From assembly GCA_030537335.1 (NCBI GenBank), contig JAUNNK010000009.1, forward strand, positions 1 through 40,569: DNA of 40,569 nucleotides, written 5' to 3'. This document shows positions 12,752 through 20,498 of this stretch, piece by piece. The notes beneath the pieces were generated by a model. It was not told the origin of the DNA and made no database searches. It saw only the letters and a program-made list of their open reading frames with translations. Origin of the DNA: Clostridia bacterium (GTDB lineage: Bacteria; Bacillota; Clostridia; Christensenellales; Aristaeellaceae). Position 1 is the stretch's first letter; each line of letters opens with the position of its first letter. The position numbers and the translations under genes were made by a program.

Positions 12752-12895
12752 GCAAATATAGCACACATTGCAATTTTTAATCTAAATCGGCCGATAGATG
12801 CGGCAATTTGAAGAACTGCTGACCTTTTTTATCACAGGTGGCATTGCCGGACTTGCATTTTTGCGCTCTGCATCGCGTGCATGCGACGCGCCCGG

Positions 12896-12924
12896 TGATA
12901 TTTTTTCTGCGCCAACCATACAAT
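12896..12924 (+). promoter_or_regulatory. Sigma-E-type (mother cell sporulation) promoter for spoIIP
   Basis: TGATATT (12896-12902), a 14-base spacer, and CATACAAT (12917-12924) match the known sigma-E boxes of Bacillus (ATATT-like -35; CATACAAT-like -10) in sequence and spacing. The -10 ends 24 bases before the spoIIP ATG. spoIIP of Bacillus subtilis is a sigma-E gene, so the match is consistent in function. Confidence 0.7.
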
Positions 12925-12948
12925 AGGATTACGCAAGGGGGTGAAATC

Positions 12949-13842
12949 ATGGTTCGCTTCAAGGTCATCAAGGGCTCCCATCTGCTGCTGGCGATCGCGA
13001 TGCTTCTGCTGGCGGCGGTGCTCGCCTTCATCCTGATTCAGGAGCTTTCGACCGACCGCAGCGTCTCCAGCGACGTCGGGCTGACAGGCGCAGCTGCCGC
13101 GATCGTCACGGAGACCGAAGAGGCAAAGGTTTTGCAGACCTTTGCCTCCGCTGCGTCCGGCGGACTGACGATCGAGGTTATCGCCGATACCCCCAAGCCA
13201 GTCGCACCGGCGGATGCCAGGACGATCCTGATCTATCACACCCACACCCACGAGGCCTACGCTCAGGATCCAGCCGATCCCTACGACGCCGTCGAGGCCT
13301 GGCGCACCGCCGACGAGCAGCACAGCGTGGTGCGCGTCGGTCAGGCCCTCGCAGATGCGCTGACCGAAATGGGCTATCGTGTGACCCACGATGTCACGGA
13401 CAACGAGCGGGACGATCTGAGCTCCTCTTACGTGCGTGCGCTGGAACTGCTTGAATCCTATGACACGGAATTCGATCTGGTGATCGACCTGCACCGCGAC
13501 GCATACTCCGAGGGCTTGCCCATTGGGATCGAAGCACCGGACGGGACAAGCTGCGCCCAGCTCATGCTGCTGGTGGGGCGCGGCGACAACTATCCCGAGA
13601 GCCAGCGCGCCGACTACGCGGCGAACCTGACCTTCGCACAGAGGGTCACCGGCGAAATCAACGCCGCCTTCCCCGGCCTGTGCCGGAACGTCAACGTCAA
13701 GCGCGGCCGTCACAACCAGCACATCGGCGGCCATGCGATGCTGGTCGAGGTTGGCCACAACCAGAACACCCTCGCCCAGGCGCTGAACTCCGTCCCCTAC
13801 CTCGCCCGGGCGATCGACGCCGCGCTCAATTCCATCGCTTAA
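12949..13842 (+). CDS. spoIIP: SpoIIP-family peptidoglycan hydrolase (engulfment)
   Basis: SpoIIP is a membrane-anchored amidase/endopeptidase that thins septal peptidoglycan so the mother cell can engulf the forespore. The 297-residue protein has a cytoplasmic start, one transmembrane segment (about 10-31), and an outer catalytic domain with YHTHTHEAY (His97, His99), VIDLHRDA (His182) and HNQHIGGHAMLVEVG (Glu267), the order of metal and catalytic residues of the family. The ATG at 12949 follows AAGGGGGTG; an in-frame extension upstream lacks a ribosome binding site. A sigma-E-type promoter lies directly upstream. spo0A follows on its own promoter. Family members outside sporulation exist, but the promoter and context favour a sporulation role. 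Confidence 0.85.
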   Translation: MVRFKVIKGSHLLLAIAMLLLAAVLAFILIQELSTDRSVSSDVGLTGAAAAIVTETEEAKVLQTFASAASGGLTIEVIADTPKPVAPADARTILIYHTHTHEAYAQDPADPYDAVEAWRTADEQHSVVRVGQALADALTEMGYRVTHDVTDNERDDLSSSYVRALELLESYDTEFDLVIDLHRDAYSEGLPIGIEAPDGTSCAQLMLLVGRGDNYPESQRADYAANLTFAQRVTGEINAAFPGLCRNVNVKRGRHNQHIGGHAMLVEVGHNQNTLAQALNSVPYLARAIDAALNSIA

Positions 13843-13843
13843 A

Positions 13844-13872
13844 TTGACAAATGCTCCGTTGCATGGTATGAT
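13844..13872 (+). promoter_or_regulatory. Sigma-A promoter of spo0A
   Basis: Perfect TTGACA (13844-13849), a 17-base spacer and TATGAT (13867-13872), beginning two bases after the spoIIP stop codon. I see no clear sigma-H box or TGTCGAA-type 0A box here. Confidence 0.85.
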
Positions 13873-13914
13873 ACTTCTATAAAGATAGAATTACTACTTA
13901 TAGGCGTGATTGTT

Positions 13915-14646
13915 ATGGATAAAACGCGGCTTGCAATCGTGGATGCAGATGTACAGTTTACGGAGCAACTGTGCCGTTTCTTCAAAATCTACCCGGACAT
14001 CGAAATCGTCGCGGTGGAGCACAACGGCCAGGATGCGCTGCAAAAAATCAAGAGCCTGCGTCCCGACGCGGTGCTGTTCGATCTCGTCCTACCCGGGCTG
14101 GACGGGATTTCCCTGCTGCGTTCCATCAACGATCTCCCCGACCCTCCCACCACGATCTGCTGCACGCGCTTCTATTCCGACGTCGCCCTGGAAGCGACCC
14201 GCGTCTACGGGGCGAGCTATCTTTTGTTCAAGCCGATCGAACTGCACACGCTGCATCCGGTGATCGTCTCCTGCACGAAGATGCACCGCGACATGAAGCG
14301 GCTGAGCAGCGCCATCGCGCTGGACAGCGCCGACCAGACGCACGTCGAGGCGCACATCCACAACTACCTCGTCTCCCTGGGCATTCCGTCCAAGCTCATC
14401 GGTTGCCGGTACCTCACCGAGGGCGTTCGGCTCGCCCGTCAGGACAGCACGTTGCTGCGCAACCTCTCCCGCGGCCTCTACTTGGAAATTTCGCGGAGCA
14501 TGAATACCACGTCCTCGCGCATTGAACGCTCCATGCGCAACGCCATCAGCACCGCCTACCACAGCGGTGGCCTGGATCACAAGCTGCCTCACTGTCCCTC
14601 CAACAAGGAGTTTCTCACCTACGTGCTGAACAACATCGAACTGTAA
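13915..14646 (+). CDS. spo0A: Stage 0 sporulation response regulator Spo0A
   Basis: Spo0A is the master regulator of sporulation, active when phosphorylated. The 243-residue protein has an N-terminal receiver domain with acidic residues Asp10 and Asp12, phospho-acceptor Asp56 (LFDLVLPGLDG), switch Thr84 and Lys106 (LFKP), and a C-terminal Spo0A DNA-binding domain (about 145-243) with the recognition region NTTSSRIERSMRNAISTAY and the late PSNKEFLTYV segment. The ATG at 13915 was chosen because AGGCG sits eight bases upstream; GTG at 13906 is too close to it. In most Clostridia and Bacillus spo0A follows recN-spoIVB; here it follows spoIIP, 8 kb from recN. Confidence 0.93.
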   Translation: MDKTRLAIVDADVQFTEQLCRFFKIYPDIEIVAVEHNGQDALQKIKSLRPDAVLFDLVLPGLDGISLLRSINDLPDPPTTICCTRFYSDVALEATRVYGASYLLFKPIELHTLHPVIVSCTKMHRDMKRLSSAIALDSADQTHVEAHIHNYLVSLGIPSKLIGCRYLTEGVRLARQDSTLLRNLSRGLYLEISRSMNTTSSRIERSMRNAISTAYHSGGLDHKLPHCPSNKEFLTYVLNNIEL

Positions 14647-14695: not shown

Positions 14696-14724
14696 TTGAC
14701 ATTTTTGCAGCATCATGTTAGAAT
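14696..14724 (+). promoter_or_regulatory. Sigma-A promoter of the riboswitch-controlled B12 operon
   Basis: TTGACA (14696-14701), 17 bases, TAGAAT (14719-14724), placing the transcript start just before the riboswitch. Confidence 0.85.
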
Positions 14725-14734
14725 CAAATTGAAT

Positions 14735-14990
14735 CCGGATAAATGAATTTGCAGGGTTGCCGGGGGAAGTACGGTGCAAATCCGTCACAACCGCCATTAC
14801 CGTAATTGCCCGCAGGGGCATAAGCCGGGCTTCCCGGGGCCATGCAAGAATTCAGCCGCGTAAGCGGCTCGGGCAGACGTTTTCGGGCAGGGAAAGCGCA
14901 GCCTTTGGCATTGCGGTGCGGGCATGTCCCGCATTCACATCCAGGGAGACTTGCGCTGGTTCGCCATGAGGCGGTATCAGCGTTTTTTCT
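14735..14990 (+). ncRNA. Cobalamin riboswitch with terminator-type expression platform
   Basis: The leader between promoter and first gene carries cobalamin riboswitch landmarks: GGGGGAAGTACGGTGCAAATCCG (in two parts, 14762-14783), then ACCGCC at the B12-box position (14790-14795), hairpins CCGGGCTTCCCGG and AGCCGC-GTAA-GCGGCT, and near the 3' end CCAGGGAGACTTGCG (14941-14955), which matches the conserved CAGGAGACCTGC element. The B12 box differs from the common GCCACTGT form (GCCATTACCGT). A terminator follows at 14954-14988 and partly overlaps the aptamer's 3' end. High cobalamin is expected to favour termination and lower expression of the uptake genes. The exact 5' edge is uncertain. Confidence 0.8.
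14954..14988 (+). terminator. Riboswitch terminator hairpin
   Basis: CGCTG (14954-14958) and CAGCG (14978-14982) close a stem that continues with CGCC/GGCG around ATGA, followed by TTTTTT (14983-14988), 54 bases ahead of the first coding start. Confidence 0.8.
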
Positions 14991-15041: not shown

Positions 15042-15722
15042 ATGAAGAAGTACGCCACTGCATTCCTTTGTGCCCTGCTGGCACTGGCGCTCTGCGGCGT
15101 AGCCGTCGCCGAGACCGTGTATGTGACCATCGCCGACGCTCAGGGCCAGCTGGTCATGGTCAACGCCGCCATCGATGTGACCGACGTCGATGCGGACGGC
15201 GCGCTCACCATCAACGACGCGCTCTATGCCGCCCACGAGGCCGCCTATGAGGGCGGCGCCGAGGCGGGCTACGCCGCTGCGGACGCGGGCTACGGCCTGA
15301 GCATCTCCAAGCTCTGGGGCGAGGAGAACGGCGGCAGCTACGGCTACTACCTCAACGACGCCTCCGCCTACAGCCTGGCGGATCCCGTATCCGAAGGCGA
15401 CTACCTCAACGCCTTCGTCTACACCGATCTGGAGGCGTGGTCCGATCAGTATTGCACCTTCGGATACAGGGAAGTCCTAGCGGACTCCGGTGCAAACATC
15501 AAACTGACCCTGAACATGATGACCTTTGATGCGGACTGGAATCCCGTCAGCATGCCGGTGGAGGGCGCCATCATCACCATTGACGGCGAAGATACCGACT
15601 ATGTCACGGATGCGGAGGGCAATGTGCAGTTCACACTCGATGCCGCCGGCGATCACCTAATCTCCGCGCGTTCCGATTCCGCCATTCTGGTTCCCCCGGT
15701 CTGCATCGTCACCGTGAAATAA
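15042..15722 (+). CDS. Secreted protein of the B12 operon, DUF4430/transcobalamin-C-like
   Basis: A 226-residue secreted protein. It has a signal peptide (MKKYATAF, hydrophobic core, cleavage likely after AVA at about residue 23). The mature part has a Ca-site-like stretch DVDADGALTINDAL, then GLSISKLWGEENGGSYGYYLNDASAYSLADPVSEGDYLNAFVY, read here in two pieces as the core pattern of DUF4430/transcobalamin beta-domain proteins (glycine/tyrosine-rich YYLN, then DPV.EGD.L), and a C-terminal Ig-like beta segment ending in VPPVCIVTVK. AGGAGG precedes the ATG. Being the first gene behind the riboswitch, it probably binds or hands over corrinoid at the cell surface. No lipobox, sortase signal or transmembrane anchor is visible, so its attachment is unclear. 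The domain call is by eye only. Confidence 0.7.
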   Translation: MKKYATAFLCALLALALCGVAVAETVYVTIADAQGQLVMVNAAIDVTDVDADGALTINDALYAAHEAAYEGGAEAGYAAADAGYGLSISKLWGEENGGSYGYYLNDASAYSLADPVSEGDYLNAFVYTDLEAWSDQYCTFGYREVLADSGANIKLTLNMMTFDADWNPVSMPVEGAIITIDGEDTDYVTDAEGNVQFTLDAAGDHLISARSDSAILVPPVCIVTVK

Positions 15723-15728
15723 AGCGGA

Positions 15729-17240
15729 ATGAAGCTGCAACGCATAATTCTTTGCGCAATCGCGCTGCTGATTGCACTCACACCCATCGCATGTGCCGTC
15801 GTTGATACGCAGAATGTCATCGACGGCATTCTGTCGTATGCCAGCGGCGACGGCGCACTCCAGGATTGGCTGGACGGCGCGCTGTGCGCTGGTGCGGGCA
15901 GCAATTCGGACAACTATCTGTTCGTGCTGCCGCGTCTGCATCCGGAGCTGGATTACTCCGCTTACGCCCGGAAGCTCGCCGAAGCGGTCGCTGGAGACGG
16001 CATCCGCAGCGTGACTGCACGCCAGCGCAGCGGCCTTGCGCTGATCGCCTGCGGCGGCAGGGAGCTGCTGCCGGAGAACCTGGTGGATGATACCGTGGGC
16101 AAGCTGGGCGTCATGAGCTACATCTACGGCCTGCACTTGCTCAACTGCGGCGCGCCCTCCGAGCTGTGGAGCGCGGAGAAACTCGTCGAAAAGCTGCTTT
16201 CGATGCGCATGGCGGACGGCGGCTGGGCGGTCATCGGCCAGTACAGCGACGTGGACGTCACCGCCATGTGCCTGCAGGCGCTGGCCGGAAGCGACGTGGA
16301 GACTGCGGAGCTGCGCGCTGCCGTCGACGAAGCCGTAGACCTGCTCTCCCGAAAACAGCTCGATAGCGGCGGCTACATGAGCATGGCCAAGGAGAACTGC
16401 GAGAGCGCCGCGCAGGTGGTGATTGCGCTGTGCGCCCTGGGCATTGATCCCGCGACGGACACGCGCTTCGCCAAAAATGGAACCAGCGTCGTGGACGCGC
16501 TGCTTGCCTATCGCCTGCCCTCTGGTGGCTTCTGCCACTTGCCGGACGATACCGAAAACGAGACCGCCGGAATTCAGGCGCTGCAAGCGCTGTTTGCCCT
16601 GTCGAATCCCGACTCTGGTCTGTTCGACTTCTCCGGAGCCCCGGCTTTGCAGAATTCCGTCCGGCACAGCAGGAAGTTCTGGGCGCGCATCGCGATCGCC
16701 GCCTGCGCGGTCATCGCCTGCGGACTCTCGCTGATCCGCCGCCACGGTCGCATCAAGCGCCTGATCTCCGTGCTGCTGCTGGCCGCCATCGCGCTGTTTG
16801 CCGTGAAGCTGATCCGCGTGGAGACGGCGGCGGACTATTACAGCGCGAGTGCCGCACCCTCCGATCCCAGCGGCAACGTCTGGCTCACGATCCGCTGCGA
16901 CACCGTGGCCGGGCGCGCCGACGACGGCAGCACGCCCGCTGACGGAACGATCCTTCCGCGCACGCAGATCGGCTTTGCCGAGGGAGACAGTGTCTACGAT
17001 GTGCTGACCTACGCCGTGCGCCAGTTCGGCATTCAGATGGAGCACCAGGGCTCCTCCGAGAACCTGGCCTACATCAACGGCATCAACTATCTCTATGAAT
17101 TTGACTACGGCGACTTGTCGGGCTGGATCTACTCCGTCAACGGCGTTCAGGAGAGCGTCGGCTGCGGCAGCTGTCTGGTGCACGATGGCGACGAGATTGC
17201 CTGGGAATACACAGTGAATCTGGGTGAGGATCTGAAATGA
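15729..17240 (+). CDS. Membrane-anchored intrinsic-factor-like protein (alpha-barrel + DUF4430)
   Basis: A 503-residue protein with a signal segment (1-23), then an extracellular helical repeat domain (about 70-300) of the squalene-cyclase/prenyltransferase barrel type, with repeat marks ADGGWAVIG (162-170), DVDVTAMCLQAL, DSGGYMS and PSGGFCH. Two transmembrane segments follow (about 318-336 and 344-362) joined by a short basic loop RRHGRIKR that should lie in the cytoplasm. The C-terminal 384-497 is DUF4430/transcobalamin-like (VYDVLTYAVRQFG, YINGINYLYEF, GWIYSVNGV). So both ligand-binding-type domains face outward. Animal intrinsic factor and transcobalamin pair an alpha-barrel with a small beta domain in the same order. 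The start is six bases past the previous stop with only weak AGCGGA, suggesting coupled translation; the stop overlaps ecfT. Cobalamin binding is inferred from domain order and riboswitch. Confidence 0.75.
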   Translation: MKLQRIILCAIALLIALTPIACAVVDTQNVIDGILSYASGDGALQDWLDGALCAGAGSNSDNYLFVLPRLHPELDYSAYARKLAEAVAGDGIRSVTARQRSGLALIACGGRELLPENLVDDTVGKLGVMSYIYGLHLLNCGAPSELWSAEKLVEKLLSMRMADGGWAVIGQYSDVDVTAMCLQALAGSDVETAELRAAVDEAVDLLSRKQLDSGGYMSMAKENCESAAQVVIALCALGIDPATDTRFAKNGTSVVDALLAYRLPSGGFCHLPDDTENETAGIQALQALFALSNPDSGLFDFSGAPALQNSVRHSRKFWARIAIAACAVIACGLSLIRRHGRIKRLISVLLLAAIALFAVKLIRVETAADYYSASAAPSDPSGNVWLTIRCDTVAGRADDGSTPADGTILPRTQIGFAEGDSVYDVLTYAVRQFGIQMEHQGSSENLAYINGINYLYEFDYGDLSGWIYSVNGVQESVGCGSCLVHDGDEIAWEYTVNLGEDLK

Positions 17241-18115
17241 GCGCACTGGACAACGTCAATCCGATCGCGGCCTTTCTGTGGCTGATGATGGTCGCGGGCA
17301 TCGCCATGTTCTGCTTCAATCCGGCTATTCTGGCGATCTCGCTGCTGGGCGCGCTGCTGTTCTTTATCTCCCGCAACCCGGACGCGCGGCCCTCAGCGCA
17401 CCTCCCCTATCTCCTTCTGTTCGCGCTGTCGGTGCTGATCAATCCGCTGTTCAACCACAACGGCGCGACGGTGCTGTTCGTGCTCAACGACAACCCGGTC
17501 ACGCTGGAAGCAATCTATTACGGCGCGGCGATGGGCGGCATGGTCCTGGCGGTGCTGTACTGGTTCCGTTCCTTTCAGCAGATCATGACCAGCGACAAGC
17601 TGCTGTACGTATTCGGCTCGGCACTGCCGAAGCTGACGCTGATCCTCTCCATTGCGTTGCGCTACATACCGCTGCTGCGCAAGCAGACCAGGCGCGTGCG
17701 GGACGCACAGAAGGCGCTGGGGCTGTTCCGGGAAGAGAATCTGCTGGACCGCCTGCGCGGCGAATTGCGCATCTTTTCCGTGCTGGTGAGCTGGGCGCTG
17801 GAAAACGGCATCATCACGGCGGACAGCATGTGCGCCCGGGGCTACGGCATAGGGCGACGCACCCGCTTTGCGCTGTTCCGCTTTCAGCTGCGGGAAGGAC
17901 TGATGTGCCTGGGCTGCCTGCTGCTGGGCGGCTGCACCATCGCCGCAATCGCCTGCGGTGCGCTCGCGTGCAGCTTCTACCCGCGCTACGCGCTGCCGTC
18001 GCCCAATGCGCTGGGCTGCGCAGCCTATGCTTCTTACACCATTCTGGCCCTTTTCCCGGCACTGTTGGAAGTGGAGGAACGAATCCGTTGGAAATCCTTA
18101 AAGTTGAAAATCTGA
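17237..18115 (+). CDS. ecfT: ECF transporter transmembrane subunit EcfT
   Basis: The 292-residue membrane protein couples the two ATPase domains to the substrate-binding S component in energy-coupling-factor importers. It has about five to six hydrophobic segments and, near residues 196-204, CARGYGIGRRT, which holds the Ala-Arg-Gly coupling motif typical of EcfT. The ATG overlaps the stop of the upstream gene by four bases and the 3' end overlaps the ATPase gene by 28 bases, so T and A subunits are tightly coupled in translation. Confidence 0.9.
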   Translation: MSALDNVNPIAAFLWLMMVAGIAMFCFNPAILAISLLGALLFFISRNPDARPSAHLPYLLLFALSVLINPLFNHNGATVLFVLNDNPVTLEAIYYGAAMGGMVLAVLYWFRSFQQIMTSDKLLYVFGSALPKLTLILSIALRYIPLLRKQTRRVRDAQKALGLFREENLLDRLRGELRIFSVLVSWALENGIITADSMCARGYGIGRRTRFALFRFQLREGLMCLGCLLLGGCTIAAIACGALACSFYPRYALPSPNALGCAAYASYTILALFPALLEVEERIRWKSLKLKI

Positions 18116-19716
18116 GCTTTGCATTTCCGGGCGCGTTACAGCCGGTGCTGCACGACGTCAGCTTCCGCATGGAGGCCGGCGATTTTCTCGCGCTGATCGG
18201 CGCCACAGGCTCGGGCAAATCCACGCTGATGCGCCTGCTGAAGCGGGAACTCGCGCCCATCGGCAGCATGCAGGGCTGCGTTTACTACAACGGCGTCGCA
18301 CAGCAGGAGCTGCTGGAGCGCGTCTCCGCCTGTGAGATCGGCTACGTGATGCAGCGCCCCGAGCAGCAGATCGTCACCGACAAGGTCTGGCACGAGCTGG
18401 CCTTCGGTCTGGAGAACCTGGGTCTCCCTCAGAGCGTCATCCGCCGCAGGGTCGCGGAGATGGCCAGCTACTTCGGCATCTCGGACTGGTTTGAGCGCGA
18501 CGTGAGCGAGCTCTCGGGCGGTCAGAAGCAGCTGCTGAATCTGGCGGCAGTGATGGTGATGCAGCCAAAGATCTTGCTGCTGGACGAGCCCACCTCCCAG
18601 CTGGACCCCATCGCGGCGGCGGACTTTTTGAATACCGTCTCCAAGCTCAACCGGGAGATGGGCGTGGGTGTGATTCTGATCGAGCACCGCCTGGAGTCCG
18701 TGCTGCCCATGGCAGACCGGGTTCTGGTGCTGGAGGACGGCACGCTGCAGCTGGATTTGCCCCCGGCCCAGGCCTGTGAGCGCCTGCGCTCCCATCCGGT
18801 ACTGCTGGACGCCATGCCTGGCGCGGTCCGGCTGTTTCACGCCGTAAACGGCGCGGGCGACTGCCCAATCACCGTGCGCGAGGGTCGCCGCTTACTGCGG
18901 GAGCACTTCGGAAACGACGTGCGCAGCCTGCCCGAGGCGACAGCGTCCCGGAGCGATGAAACTGTCCTCGAATTCAAGAACGTCTACTTTCGCTACGGTC
19001 GGGAGTACCCCGATGTGCTGAAGGGCTTGAACCTGCAGGTGCGCAAGGGCGAGATCTTCTGCTTTCTGGGGTCGAACGGTTCGGGCAAGTCTACGCTGTT
19101 GAAGCTGTGTGCCGGACTGTGCCGCCCTTACAGCGGCTCCATTCGCATCTTTGGCAAGAAGATTCAGCAGTTTCGCGGCCAGTCGCTGTATCGGGATTGC
19201 GTGGCGCTGCTGCCGCAGGATCCTCAGACCGTATTCTTGAAGAGCACTGTTCGCGACGAACTGCACGAGGTGCACGCCGATCCGTCGGCGCTCCCCTACT
19301 CGCTGGTGCATCTGATGGAACGCCACCCCTACGACCTCAGCGGCGGCGAACAGCAGCTGGTGGCGCTGGCGAAGGTGCTGGCGTCGAGGCCGCAGATTCT
19401 GCTGCTGGACGAGCCCACCAAGGGCGTGGATTCCCATGCGCAGACGGCGGTGCTGGAGGTGCTGCAGCGCCTGAAGGCGGAGGGAATCACCATACTGCTC
19501 GTAACCCACGATGTGGAATTTGCCGCCCGCTGTGCAGATCGCTGCGCACTGTTCTTCCGCGGCGAGATCGTCTCCGAGGATGCGCCCGCGCGCTTCTTCG
19601 ATGAGAACAGCTTCTATACCACCTCCGCCAACCGCATCTGCCGCGGTTGGTATGAGGGCGTGGCCACGGTCGAGAACGCGGCAGAGCTCTGCCGCAGAAA
19701 CGGCGGCGCGCGATGA
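18088..19716 (+). CDS. Fused double ATP-binding subunit of the ECF transporter (EcfA-EcfA')
   Basis: A 543-residue protein made of two ABC ATPase domains in one chain, equivalent to EcfA1 and EcfA2. Domain 1 has Walker A GATGSGKST (38-46), signature LSGGQKQLL and Walker B ILLLDEPTSQLD; domain 2 (from about 290) has GSNGSGKST, LSGGEQQLV and ILLLDEPTKGVD. All catalytic motifs appear intact in both. The start is TTG at 18088 with GGAGG ten bases upstream, inside the end of ecfT; the frame is open far upstream but that part is antisense-like read-through of ecfT. It powers import together with EcfT and the S component that follows. Confidence 0.92.
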   Translation: MEILKVENLSFAFPGALQPVLHDVSFRMEAGDFLALIGATGSGKSTLMRLLKRELAPIGSMQGCVYYNGVAQQELLERVSACEIGYVMQRPEQQIVTDKVWHELAFGLENLGLPQSVIRRRVAEMASYFGISDWFERDVSELSGGQKQLLNLAAVMVMQPKILLLDEPTSQLDPIAAADFLNTVSKLNREMGVGVILIEHRLESVLPMADRVLVLEDGTLQLDLPPAQACERLRSHPVLLDAMPGAVRLFHAVNGAGDCPITVREGRRLLREHFGNDVRSLPEATASRSDETVLEFKNVYFRYGREYPDVLKGLNLQVRKGEIFCFLGSNGSGKSTLLKLCAGLCRPYSGSIRIFGKKIQQFRGQSLYRDCVALLPQDPQTVFLKSTVRDELHEVHADPSALPYSLVHLMERHPYDLSGGEQQLVALAKVLASRPQILLLDEPTKGVDSHAQTAVLEVLQRLKAEGITILLVTHDVEFAARCADRCALFFRGEIVSEDAPARFFDENSFYTTSANRICRGWYEGVATVENAAELCRRNGGAR

Positions 19717-20417
19717 AGCTGCTGCTGATTCGCAGCGCAAGGCTGCGCAAAATTCTGGGAATCGCGCTGCCCTTCATCGCCATACCGGCTGTGGTGCTGT
19801 GCTTTGCCCTGCTCTCCAGCGGAGACAACTACGCACTGGCCTCGCTTCTGGTAACGCTGCTGGCGCTGGTGCTGTTCTCCTGCGGCTTCGAGCGCCGCAA
19901 GACGGGCACGCGTCGGATGATCCTCGTGGCGGTGATGACCGCGCTTTCCGTGGTTGGCCGCTTCGTGTTCATGGTGATTCCCGGCTTCAAGCCCATCACC
20001 GCACTGGTAGTGATCACGGCCATGTATCTGGGCGGCGAAGCGGGTTTCCTCACCGGCGCGCTCTCCGCATTGATCTCCAACTTTTACTTTGGCCAGGGAC
20101 CGTGGACGCCCTTCCAGATGCTCTCCTGGGGCCTACTTGGCCTGCTGGCGGGCTTCCTCGCGCGGCCGTTGAAGCGCAGCCGCATCCTGCTCTCGCTCTA
20201 CGGCGTGTTCGCGGGCGTGGCCTACTCCTTTATCATGGACGTCTGGACGGTGCTCTGGTACAACGGCGGCTTCAATCCCGCACTCTATGTGACAGCGCTG
20301 GGCACTGCTCTCCCCTACACCATCGCCTACGCCGTCTCCAACGTGATCTTCCTGAACCTTCTGGCGCGCCCCTTCGGCGAGAAGCTGGAGCGCGTGCGCA
20401 TCAAGTACGGCTGCTGA
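19713..20417 (+). CDS. ECF transporter S component, probably for cobalamin
   Basis: A 234-residue integral membrane protein with about six transmembrane segments and the S-component pattern AVMTALSVVGRFVF, then FKPITALVVITAMYLGGEAGFLTGALSALISNFYFGQGPWTPFQM in the middle (named here by its ends; key motif FGQGPWTPFQM near 128-138). S components bind the vitamin and dock on EcfT. It overlaps the ATPase gene by four bases (ATGA) and closes the operon. Substrate specificity for cobalamin is inferred from the riboswitch and the intrinsic-factor-like genes, not from a residue signature. Two hairpins follow. Confidence 0.85.
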   Translation: MKLLLIRSARLRKILGIALPFIAIPAVVLCFALLSSGDNYALASLLVTLLALVLFSCGFERRKTGTRRMILVAVMTALSVVGRFVFMVIPGFKPITALVVITAMYLGGEAGFLTGALSALISNFYFGQGPWTPFQMLSWGLLGLLAGFLARPLKRSRILLSLYGVFAGVAYSFIMDVWTVLWYNGGFNPALYVTALGTALPYTIAYAVSNVIFLNLLARPFGEKLERVRIKYGC

Positions 20418-20454: not shown

Positions 20455-20468
20455 GTTGCATGCAAACG

Positions 20469-20498
20469 CGCCCGGCAAACGCCGGGCGCACAGTTTTT
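20469..20498 (+). terminator. Terminator of the B12 operon
   Basis: CGCCCGGC (20469-20476) and GCCGGGCG (20481-20488) with loop AAAC, followed by CACAGTTTTT. It may also help stop the convergent sensor transcript. Confidence 0.75.

Follow-up and report, generated by a model that had tools for sequence, protein, structure and literature searches.

A conserved membrane hairpin joins the toroid and SLBB domains of a putative corrinoid clamp encoded beside a CbrT-like ECF importer in Clostridia

ECF importers are held to capture their substrate via a membrane S-component. This raises the question of what a protein with two predicted extracellular domains would contribute when its gene lies directly ahead of the genes for such an importer. 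We examined one such locus in a Clostridia bacterium (contig JAUNNK010000009.1, assembly GCA_030537335.1); the whole 40,569-nt stretch analysed is referred to here as the window. The features considered below are as follows.

14696..14724, plus strand: sigma-70-like promoter found by consensus scan (TTGACA-17-TAGAAT, with TG ahead of the second hexamer), 12 nt 5' of the aptamer
14737..14872, plus strand: putative AdoCbl/cobalamin riboswitch aptamer (RF01482 and RF00174, both below the Rfam gathering score)
15042..15722, plus strand: gene 1, first gene of the operon; secreted protein of 226 aa with a DxDxDGxLxxxD loop and a CarboxypepD_reg-like C-terminal part
15729..17240, plus strand: gene 2, an open ORF of 503 aa (signal peptide, toroid, transmembrane hairpin, SLBB/DUF4430)
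15729..15800, plus strand: gene 2 signal peptide region, residues 1-24, with a hydrophobic segment at 6-24
15810..16628, plus strand: gene 2 alpha/alpha toroid, residues ~28-300, boundaries approximate
16680..16736, plus strand: gene 2 transmembrane helix 1, residues 318-336, by hydropathy
16764..16820, plus strand: gene 2 transmembrane helix 2, residues 346-364, by hydropathy
16854..17237, plus strand: gene 2 SLBB/DUF4430 domain with N-terminal arm, residues 376-503, from PF14478 and alignment
17237..18115, plus strand: EcfT (CbiQ-like; PF02361, E = 2.5e-9), its start overlapping the gene 2 stop (ATGA)
18088..19716, plus strand: fused double EcfA-A' ATPase (two PF00005 stretches; TIGR04520 over its cut-off), with a likely TTG start at 18088 preceded by GGAGG
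19713..20417, plus strand: CbrT-like S-component (best PDB match 6FNP chain A; PF07155)
20468..20489, plus strand: terminator-like stem-loop with a T tail and 9 GC pairs, 3' of the S-component gene

The first-pass annotation had described the product of gene 2 as a helical barrel of the intrinsic-factor type followed by a DUF4430 domain. Both domains are present in one chain with the toroid first: residues 419-495 match DUF4430 (PF14478) above the Pfam cut-off (E = 3.2e-14), and the toroid, which alone matches PF00432 only below the cut-off (residues 132-232, E = 8e-4), is identified by a profile built from 27 toroids that matches squalene-cyclase toroids in PDB (2.6e-14). Among these 27 toroids, 25 match PF13243 and 21 match PF00432 (E <= 1), and the animal cobalamin-binding toroid family (PF01122, Cobalamin_bind) is absent from the 20 families reported for them at that threshold. 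The toroid sequence thus supports the fold class and no specific tie to intrinsic factor; the barrel part of the description stands, and membership of the intrinsic-factor family by way of PF01122, reported for none of the 27, is unsupported. A weak similarity of the toroid to the SCO2321 family membrane protein model of NCBIfam (NF053823; 7.5e-8) reaches 31.7 bits against a cut-off of 300. When the SLBB-domain profile was compared with PDB, no chain was significant, transcobalamin included (best E = 0.69, chance level). Two residues of gene 2, H270 and W466, are invariant in 79 of 79 proteins and are candidates for contact with a corrinoid; in transcobalamin, a histidine ligates cobalt.

Hydropathy analysis of gene 2 gave three segments, at residues 6-24, 318-336 and 346-364, the last two being joined by a basic loop. 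At KD >= 2.0, three segments were reached by 35 of 5000 shuffles of the protein, which puts the observation moderately above chance, and at the looser threshold of 1.6, at least three segments were found in 529 of 2000 shuffles. As such counts are too loose to prove a hairpin from a single protein, we used conservation together with shuffles instead. A pattern scan of a genome collection yielded 261 relatives, and the analysis was carried out on the best 80. These are not independent: many are closely related, and four share contigs with regions found in a smaller first search (L019-L022). In 79 of these best 80 of 261 relatives, the toroid motif and the SLBB motif are separated by exactly two hydrophobic segments (the exception is L099), and the loop between the segments averages 4.1 K/R and 0.04 D/E. 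A stricter pattern, requiring the two-segment hairpin and its basic loop, likewise occurs in 79 of the 80, whereas shuffling of these regions reproduced it 3 times in 2000; at a higher threshold the hairpin was found in 78 of the 80 and in no shuffle. On the strength of this conservation we consider the hairpin real, in agreement with the two transmembrane helices first proposed for the protein. Under the positive-inside rule, the loop would be cytoplasmic and the toroid and SLBB domains would both lie outside the cell, with which the signal peptide agrees; the same orientation had been suggested before, and it is consistent with the SLH domains and tail anchors seen in split relatives.

These split relatives also bear on the origin of the hairpin. 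A search of the class, covering 291 genomes including the window's own, gave an SLBB match in 109, and 20 regions were chosen from the listed matches with weight on the best, so that they are not a random sample. All 20 carry an EcfT homologue. The toroid is part of a fused hairpin protein in three of them (L153, L156, L157), is encoded by an adjacent separate gene in 12, lies inside a giant multidomain protein in three (L159, L168, L172) and was not found in two (L154, L170). Giant proteins of ~1,300-2,300 aa, with SLBB and with or without a toroid, were seen adjoining, or not far from, these ECF genes in L159, L161, L164-L166, L168 and L172. In distant relatives, toroid and SLBB are often two separate proteins with anchors. 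SLH domains are present in six of the 10 separate toroid proteins scanned, which points to a location at the cell wall. The separate toroid proteins of L155 and L171, and of the nearer relatives L024 and L026, end in a membrane helix and a basic tail, and their SLBB partners have an N-terminal anchor helix, which in L171 is replaced by a lipoprotein-like signal; the split toroids of L025, L158 and L169 have neither SLH nor a tail helix. L155 comes from a draft genome and its two frames share 14 nt, so that a frame error is possible there; L024 and L026 are independent of this. Given the tail-helix toroids and their N-anchored SLBB partners, the hairpin looks like the tail anchor of a toroid protein fused to the signal anchor of an SLBB protein, and we infer that the change ran from split to fused. 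In a tree of 58 SLBB domains there are three changes between fused and split, and none of 200 bootstrap trees (0%) has one; however, the data do not reject a tree constrained to hold all fused rows in one clade (AU p = 0.549), and this tree has the slightly better score. Independent fusions are accordingly not claimed.

Gene 2 had been placed second in an operon with an ECF importer, and the window bears this out: genes for EcfT, the fused EcfA-A' ATPase and the S-component follow it directly. The gap between genes 1 and 2 is 6 nt and the S-component gene starts 4 nt before the end of the EcfA-A' gene. The promoter-like and terminator-like sites matter for their positions bracketing the operon and not for their numbers, as their counts are near those expected by shuffling (2 found against 1.3 expected, and 5 against 4.3). 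Taken together, the arrangement suggests that riboswitch, gene 1, gene 2, EcfT, EcfA-A' and S-component are co-transcribed. Immediately upstream of this unit, at 12838-14646 of the window, are SpoIIP and Spo0A-like sporulation genes. At the Rfam gathering score, no riboswitch was found anywhere in the window. The AdoCbl model (RF01482) gave 35.1 bits at 14737-14872 (E = 1.2e-4 in 701 bases; gathering score 50) and RF00174 gave 20.7 bits (gathering score 31.5); a relative of the same genus (L030) scored 36.9 bits, and the RF00174 gathering score was passed in relatives L031, L040, L042, L039, L089 and L108. A cobalamin riboswitch below gathering score is thus a credible assignment for the window.

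Is this gene order typical of the family? In the first search, which covered 60 genomes including the window's own, 12 had a match. EcfT and an S-component stand beside the gene in nine of the 11 regions examined (L019-L029); the contig of L024 ends shortly after the gene, and L029, which has neither toroid nor EcfT, looks unrelated. Among the best 80 of 261 relatives, EcfT starts less than 1 kb downstream in 68 of the 77 loci that hold 700 nt or more of downstream sequence; the ECF set is upstream instead in L059, L066, L071, L073, L087 and L096, and L053, L063 and L103 gave no EcfT match. For the riboswitch, a covariance model (R1) was made from those of the window, L030, L031, L039, L040 and L042. 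Applied to 81 sources, R1 gave 64 matches, all on the strand of the gene, which fall in the window and in 60 of the best 80 of 261 loci; five of these 60 are seed members of R1 and three carry two matches. R1 also matches eight of the 11 regions of the first search. With L089 and L108, recognized by Rfam, a cobalamin riboswitch is present in 62 of the best 80 of 261 loci. An R1 match lies within 3.5 kb of the gene, at a median of 1293 nt from its start, in 51 of the 73 loci whose upstream sequence exceeds 2 kb (best 80 of 261), and 4.4-4.8 kb upstream, ahead of the ECF set that precedes the gene, in L071, L073, L087 and L096. With the models as applied, 18 of the 80 gave no cobalamin riboswitch; two of these (L052 and L109) hold less than 1 kb upstream. 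Of the 20 class-wide regions, R1 matches only eight at E <= 0.1, four of them weakly. Rfam scans of 24 loci over their full length gave only two riboswitches of other classes, FMN (L040) and THF (L092), each kilobases distant and on the other strand; none of another class lies upstream on the strand of the operon. Homologues thus stand mostly, and not always, beside an ECF importer and a cobalamin riboswitch, and they are not consistently associated with riboswitches or transporters of another kind.

The strongest independent pointer to the substrate is the S-component. Compared with PDB, the window S-component alone matches 6FNP chain A at 6.3e-12 (next match 0.035), and a profile of 25 S-components matches the same chain at 2.5e-17 (next 4HZU, 8e-4). 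The 6FNP entry is ECF-CbrT of Lactobacillus delbrueckii, which takes up cobalamin and cobinamide according to the portion of its description available (PMC5997447). The nearest S-component model in NCBIfam is that of the folate family, matched by 24 of the 25 S-components (best 2.8e-10); on the window S-component it reaches 23.6 bits, far below its cut-off of 60. The importer is likely of the CbrT type and is predicted to take up B12. Together with the riboswitch in 62 loci, this upholds the original reading of the locus as a cobalamin operon.

Gene 1 had no confident Pfam family. In 67 of the best 80 of 261 loci, a loose script found an ORF with a signal-peptide-like sequence immediately 5' of the gene 2 homologue, and 29 of these 67 ORFs were aligned with the window protein. 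In all 30, D48, D52 and G53 are invariant; they lie in the DxDxDGxLxxxD loop, which we take to be of the EF-hand/dockerin type. CarboxypepD_reg is matched in 15 of the 30 and Gram_pos_anchor in one (Pfam), and many of the relatives have, by eye, a C-terminal hydrophobic helix with an LPxTG-like motif. The N-terminal half compared with the SLBB domain gave an hhalign probability of 8-13%, one of 100 column-shuffled controls scoring higher, and the SLBB model matches the gene adjoining the toroid in L155-L157. Colinearity is suggestive, but at these probabilities we do not claim a second SLBB domain in the window; a calcium-binding, SLBB-like domain in gene 1 is possible.

The host is probably more than a scavenger. 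Its genome encodes CbiD (E = 1.8e-91), on a contig where further CbiA/CbiP/CbiB/CbiC/CobD-like ORFs were recognized by eye, and has four B12-binding-domain matches, three PF01497 matches and seven PF07155 matches, six of them over the cut-off. From these genes, the host is probably a maker of corrins that also salvages them, and the reading as a plain B12 auxotroph was set aside on account of CbiD. Three strong cobalamin riboswitches were seen elsewhere in the genome. One (G000:C67:11168-11348, or L115:6169-6349, minus strand, 105.8 bits) precedes OppD/OppF/OppB-like ABC ORFs, after which come a PF01497 binding protein and a FecCD-like permease (ORFs and permease by eye), possibly a second unit for uptake of cobalt or corrinoids. 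The nearest plus-strand ORF to another (G000:C238:6261-6435, or L116:2262-2436, plus strand, 88.3 bits) resembles, by eye, a C39-type cysteine peptidase, a surprising gene to find under B12 riboswitch control; a CobT-like ORF lies on the other strand. The third (G000:C136:2336-2530, or L114:2336-2530, minus strand, 107.8 bits) is followed by an ORF that resembles, by eye, one for a secreted CbiK-type cobaltochelatase.

We favour, with a probability of about 0.65, the reading that gene 2 encodes a membrane-pinned extracellular corrinoid clamp serving the CbrT-type ECF importer with which it would be co-transcribed. Its toroid and its SLBB domain would stand outside, side by side on the two-helix hairpin with its short basic cytoplasmic loop, and, judging from the architecture, would close on a corrinoid between them as transcobalamin does. 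The secreted product of gene 1 may capture B12 first; the pinned clamp would then raise the local concentration of B12 at the S-component or hand it over, a step suggested by gene neighbourhood, and the S-component would carry it across with EcfT and EcfA-A'. At plentiful intracellular AdoCbl, the riboswitch would shut the operon down. The hairpin itself would have come about when a toroid protein with a tail anchor was fused to an SLBB protein anchored at its N terminus; the two are encoded by separate genes in many other Clostridia. A bolder version, in which the clamp is pinned to the ECF complex and its closure is mechanically coupled to loading of the S-component, so that the whole would be an ECF transporter with a tethered substrate-binding protein, is a tentative idea that we consider rather doubtful.

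Other readings share much of this evidence. The clamp may take corrinoid precursors or other cobamides, such as cobinamide and incomplete corrinoids, in place of B12, for remodelling by the host. The corrin-synthesis genes and the CobT-like ORF suggest that the host could finish such precursors, and the transport of cobinamide by ECF-CbrT (PMC5997447, as far as available) fits as well; the riboswitch, however, suggests only that the operon responds to a cobalamin and does not separate B12 from its precursors, and we regard this reading as unlikely while giving it some weight. A different ligand altogether, for example a glycan or another cofactor, with an incidental operon association, seems very improbable. 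Other ligands have indeed been proposed for some proteins with SLBB domains, polysaccharide export proteins among them (PMC1796856, in the part available), and the nearest NCBIfam model for the S-component is a folate one, but the cobalamin riboswitch in 62 of the best 80 of 261 loci, the CbrT-like S-component and the lack, in full-length Rfam scans of 24 loci, of any other riboswitch class 5' of the operon on its own strand all speak against it.

The remaining alternatives concern the hairpin. It could itself be an ECF subunit with a role like that of CbiN or NikN in metal ECF importers, binding EcfT or the S-component within the membrane and gating loading while the outer domains sense or position the substrate. 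Its retention in 79 of the best 80 of 261 relatives, where a single anchor should suffice, and the position of the gene ahead of ecfT in 68 of 77 loci of that set would be explained, and NikN and CbiN are described as having two transmembrane domains (PMC2667541, in the part available). Neither Pfam nor NCBIfam gives a CbiN or NikN match for gene 2, however, and the hairpin is not essential to the system, since an SLH domain replaces it in six of the 10 split toroids scanned. CbiN, moreover, has the opposite topology, with its termini inside and its loop outside. We hold this role to be quite improbable. Conversely, the toroid and SLBB domains might form a surface reservoir or receptor independent of the transporter, the hairpin being no more than a relic anchor of gene fusion. 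The same ECF genes are also found next to separate toroid and SLBB genes whose anchors differ, and, with a single fused clade not rejected, the fusion may be one inherited accident; conservation of the hairpin across a large family and the ATGA overlap of gene 2 with ecfT in the window are harder to reconcile with independence, which makes this an unlikely account.

B12 is contested in gut and rumen communities, and the host is related to gut and rumen species. Were the bolder version true, the gut and rumen Clostridia of this large family would possess a dedicated corrinoid clamp with two jaws, made of the two domain types that animal intrinsic factor also has. The capture step ahead of Gram-positive ECF transporters seems little studied, and a compact clamp with both domains and the anchor in one chain encoded by one gene is convenient for structural and binding work.

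The idea of B12 scavenging by such proteins dates from 2007, when Burroughs et al. described bacterial toroid-SLBB proteins with paralogous SLBB partners and CbiO/CbiQ neighbours and predicted that they scavenge B12 (PMC1796856; here and below we refer to the part of that paper available). Like those proteins, gene 2 has a toroid with an SLBB domain of the transcobalamin clade, a signal peptide and CbiO/CbiQ-type neighbours; their operons often encode a second extracellular SLBB protein, and here gene 1 adjoins, in which such a domain is only possible. The 2007 hosts usually lack key enzymes of B12 synthesis, whereas the host of gene 2 has CbiD. The 2007 proteins are secreted or at the cell surface, some with a Gram-positive anchor, and the available text mentions no hairpin between the domains (PMC1796856). 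In the open-access literature, which leaves most subscription papers and all preprints outside, we found neither a description of the fused form with a membrane hairpin nor an experimental test of the 2007 prediction on toroid-SLBB proteins and transporters; the available parts of a paper on corrinoid starvation in Dehalobacter and of a review of C. difficile riboswitches contain nothing on the family. Gene 2 is thus a real, conserved, membrane-pinned variant of the predicted kind; what it adds is the hairpin between toroid and SLBB, and its family ties the 2007 prediction to a CbrT-like S-component.

Among other systems, CbrT of L. delbrueckii is the nearest solved relative of the window S-component. 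Its gene lies in nrdJ-cbrS-cbrT-pduO and it shares its ECF module with other S-components (PMC5997447, in the part available), unlike the window operon, which has its own EcfT, fused EcfA-A' and two secreted or surface proteins. In Lacticaseibacillus rhamnosus, a DUF4430 protein beside rtpR and the 'lipoprotein component of putative cobalamin ECF transporter' also tie DUF4430 and extracytoplasmic lipoproteins to cobalamin use; the source is a proteome listing, whose available part describes no toroid fusion or hairpin (PMC9963975). These cases apart, gene 2 can be set beside the B12-capturing proteins of other importers. BtuG captures B12 outside the cytoplasm, and both BtuF and BtuG have other folds and belong with another transporter class than the gene 2 system. 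From this background, and as the gene 2 protein has no PF01497 match in Pfam, its strategy appears distinct from theirs, as the first-pass annotation had it. BtuF, working with BtuCD, does resemble the proposed clamp in capturing B12 extracytoplasmically for an importer (PMC5997447, in the part available). The animal carriers transcobalamin, haptocorrin and intrinsic factor have the same order as gene 2, toroid and then DUF4430/SLBB (PMC1796856, PMC4350170, in the parts available). They are soluble, whereas gene 2 is membrane-anchored and PF01122 is not reported for its toroid. We know of no membrane helices in the animal carriers, on whose origin the gene 2 family bears.
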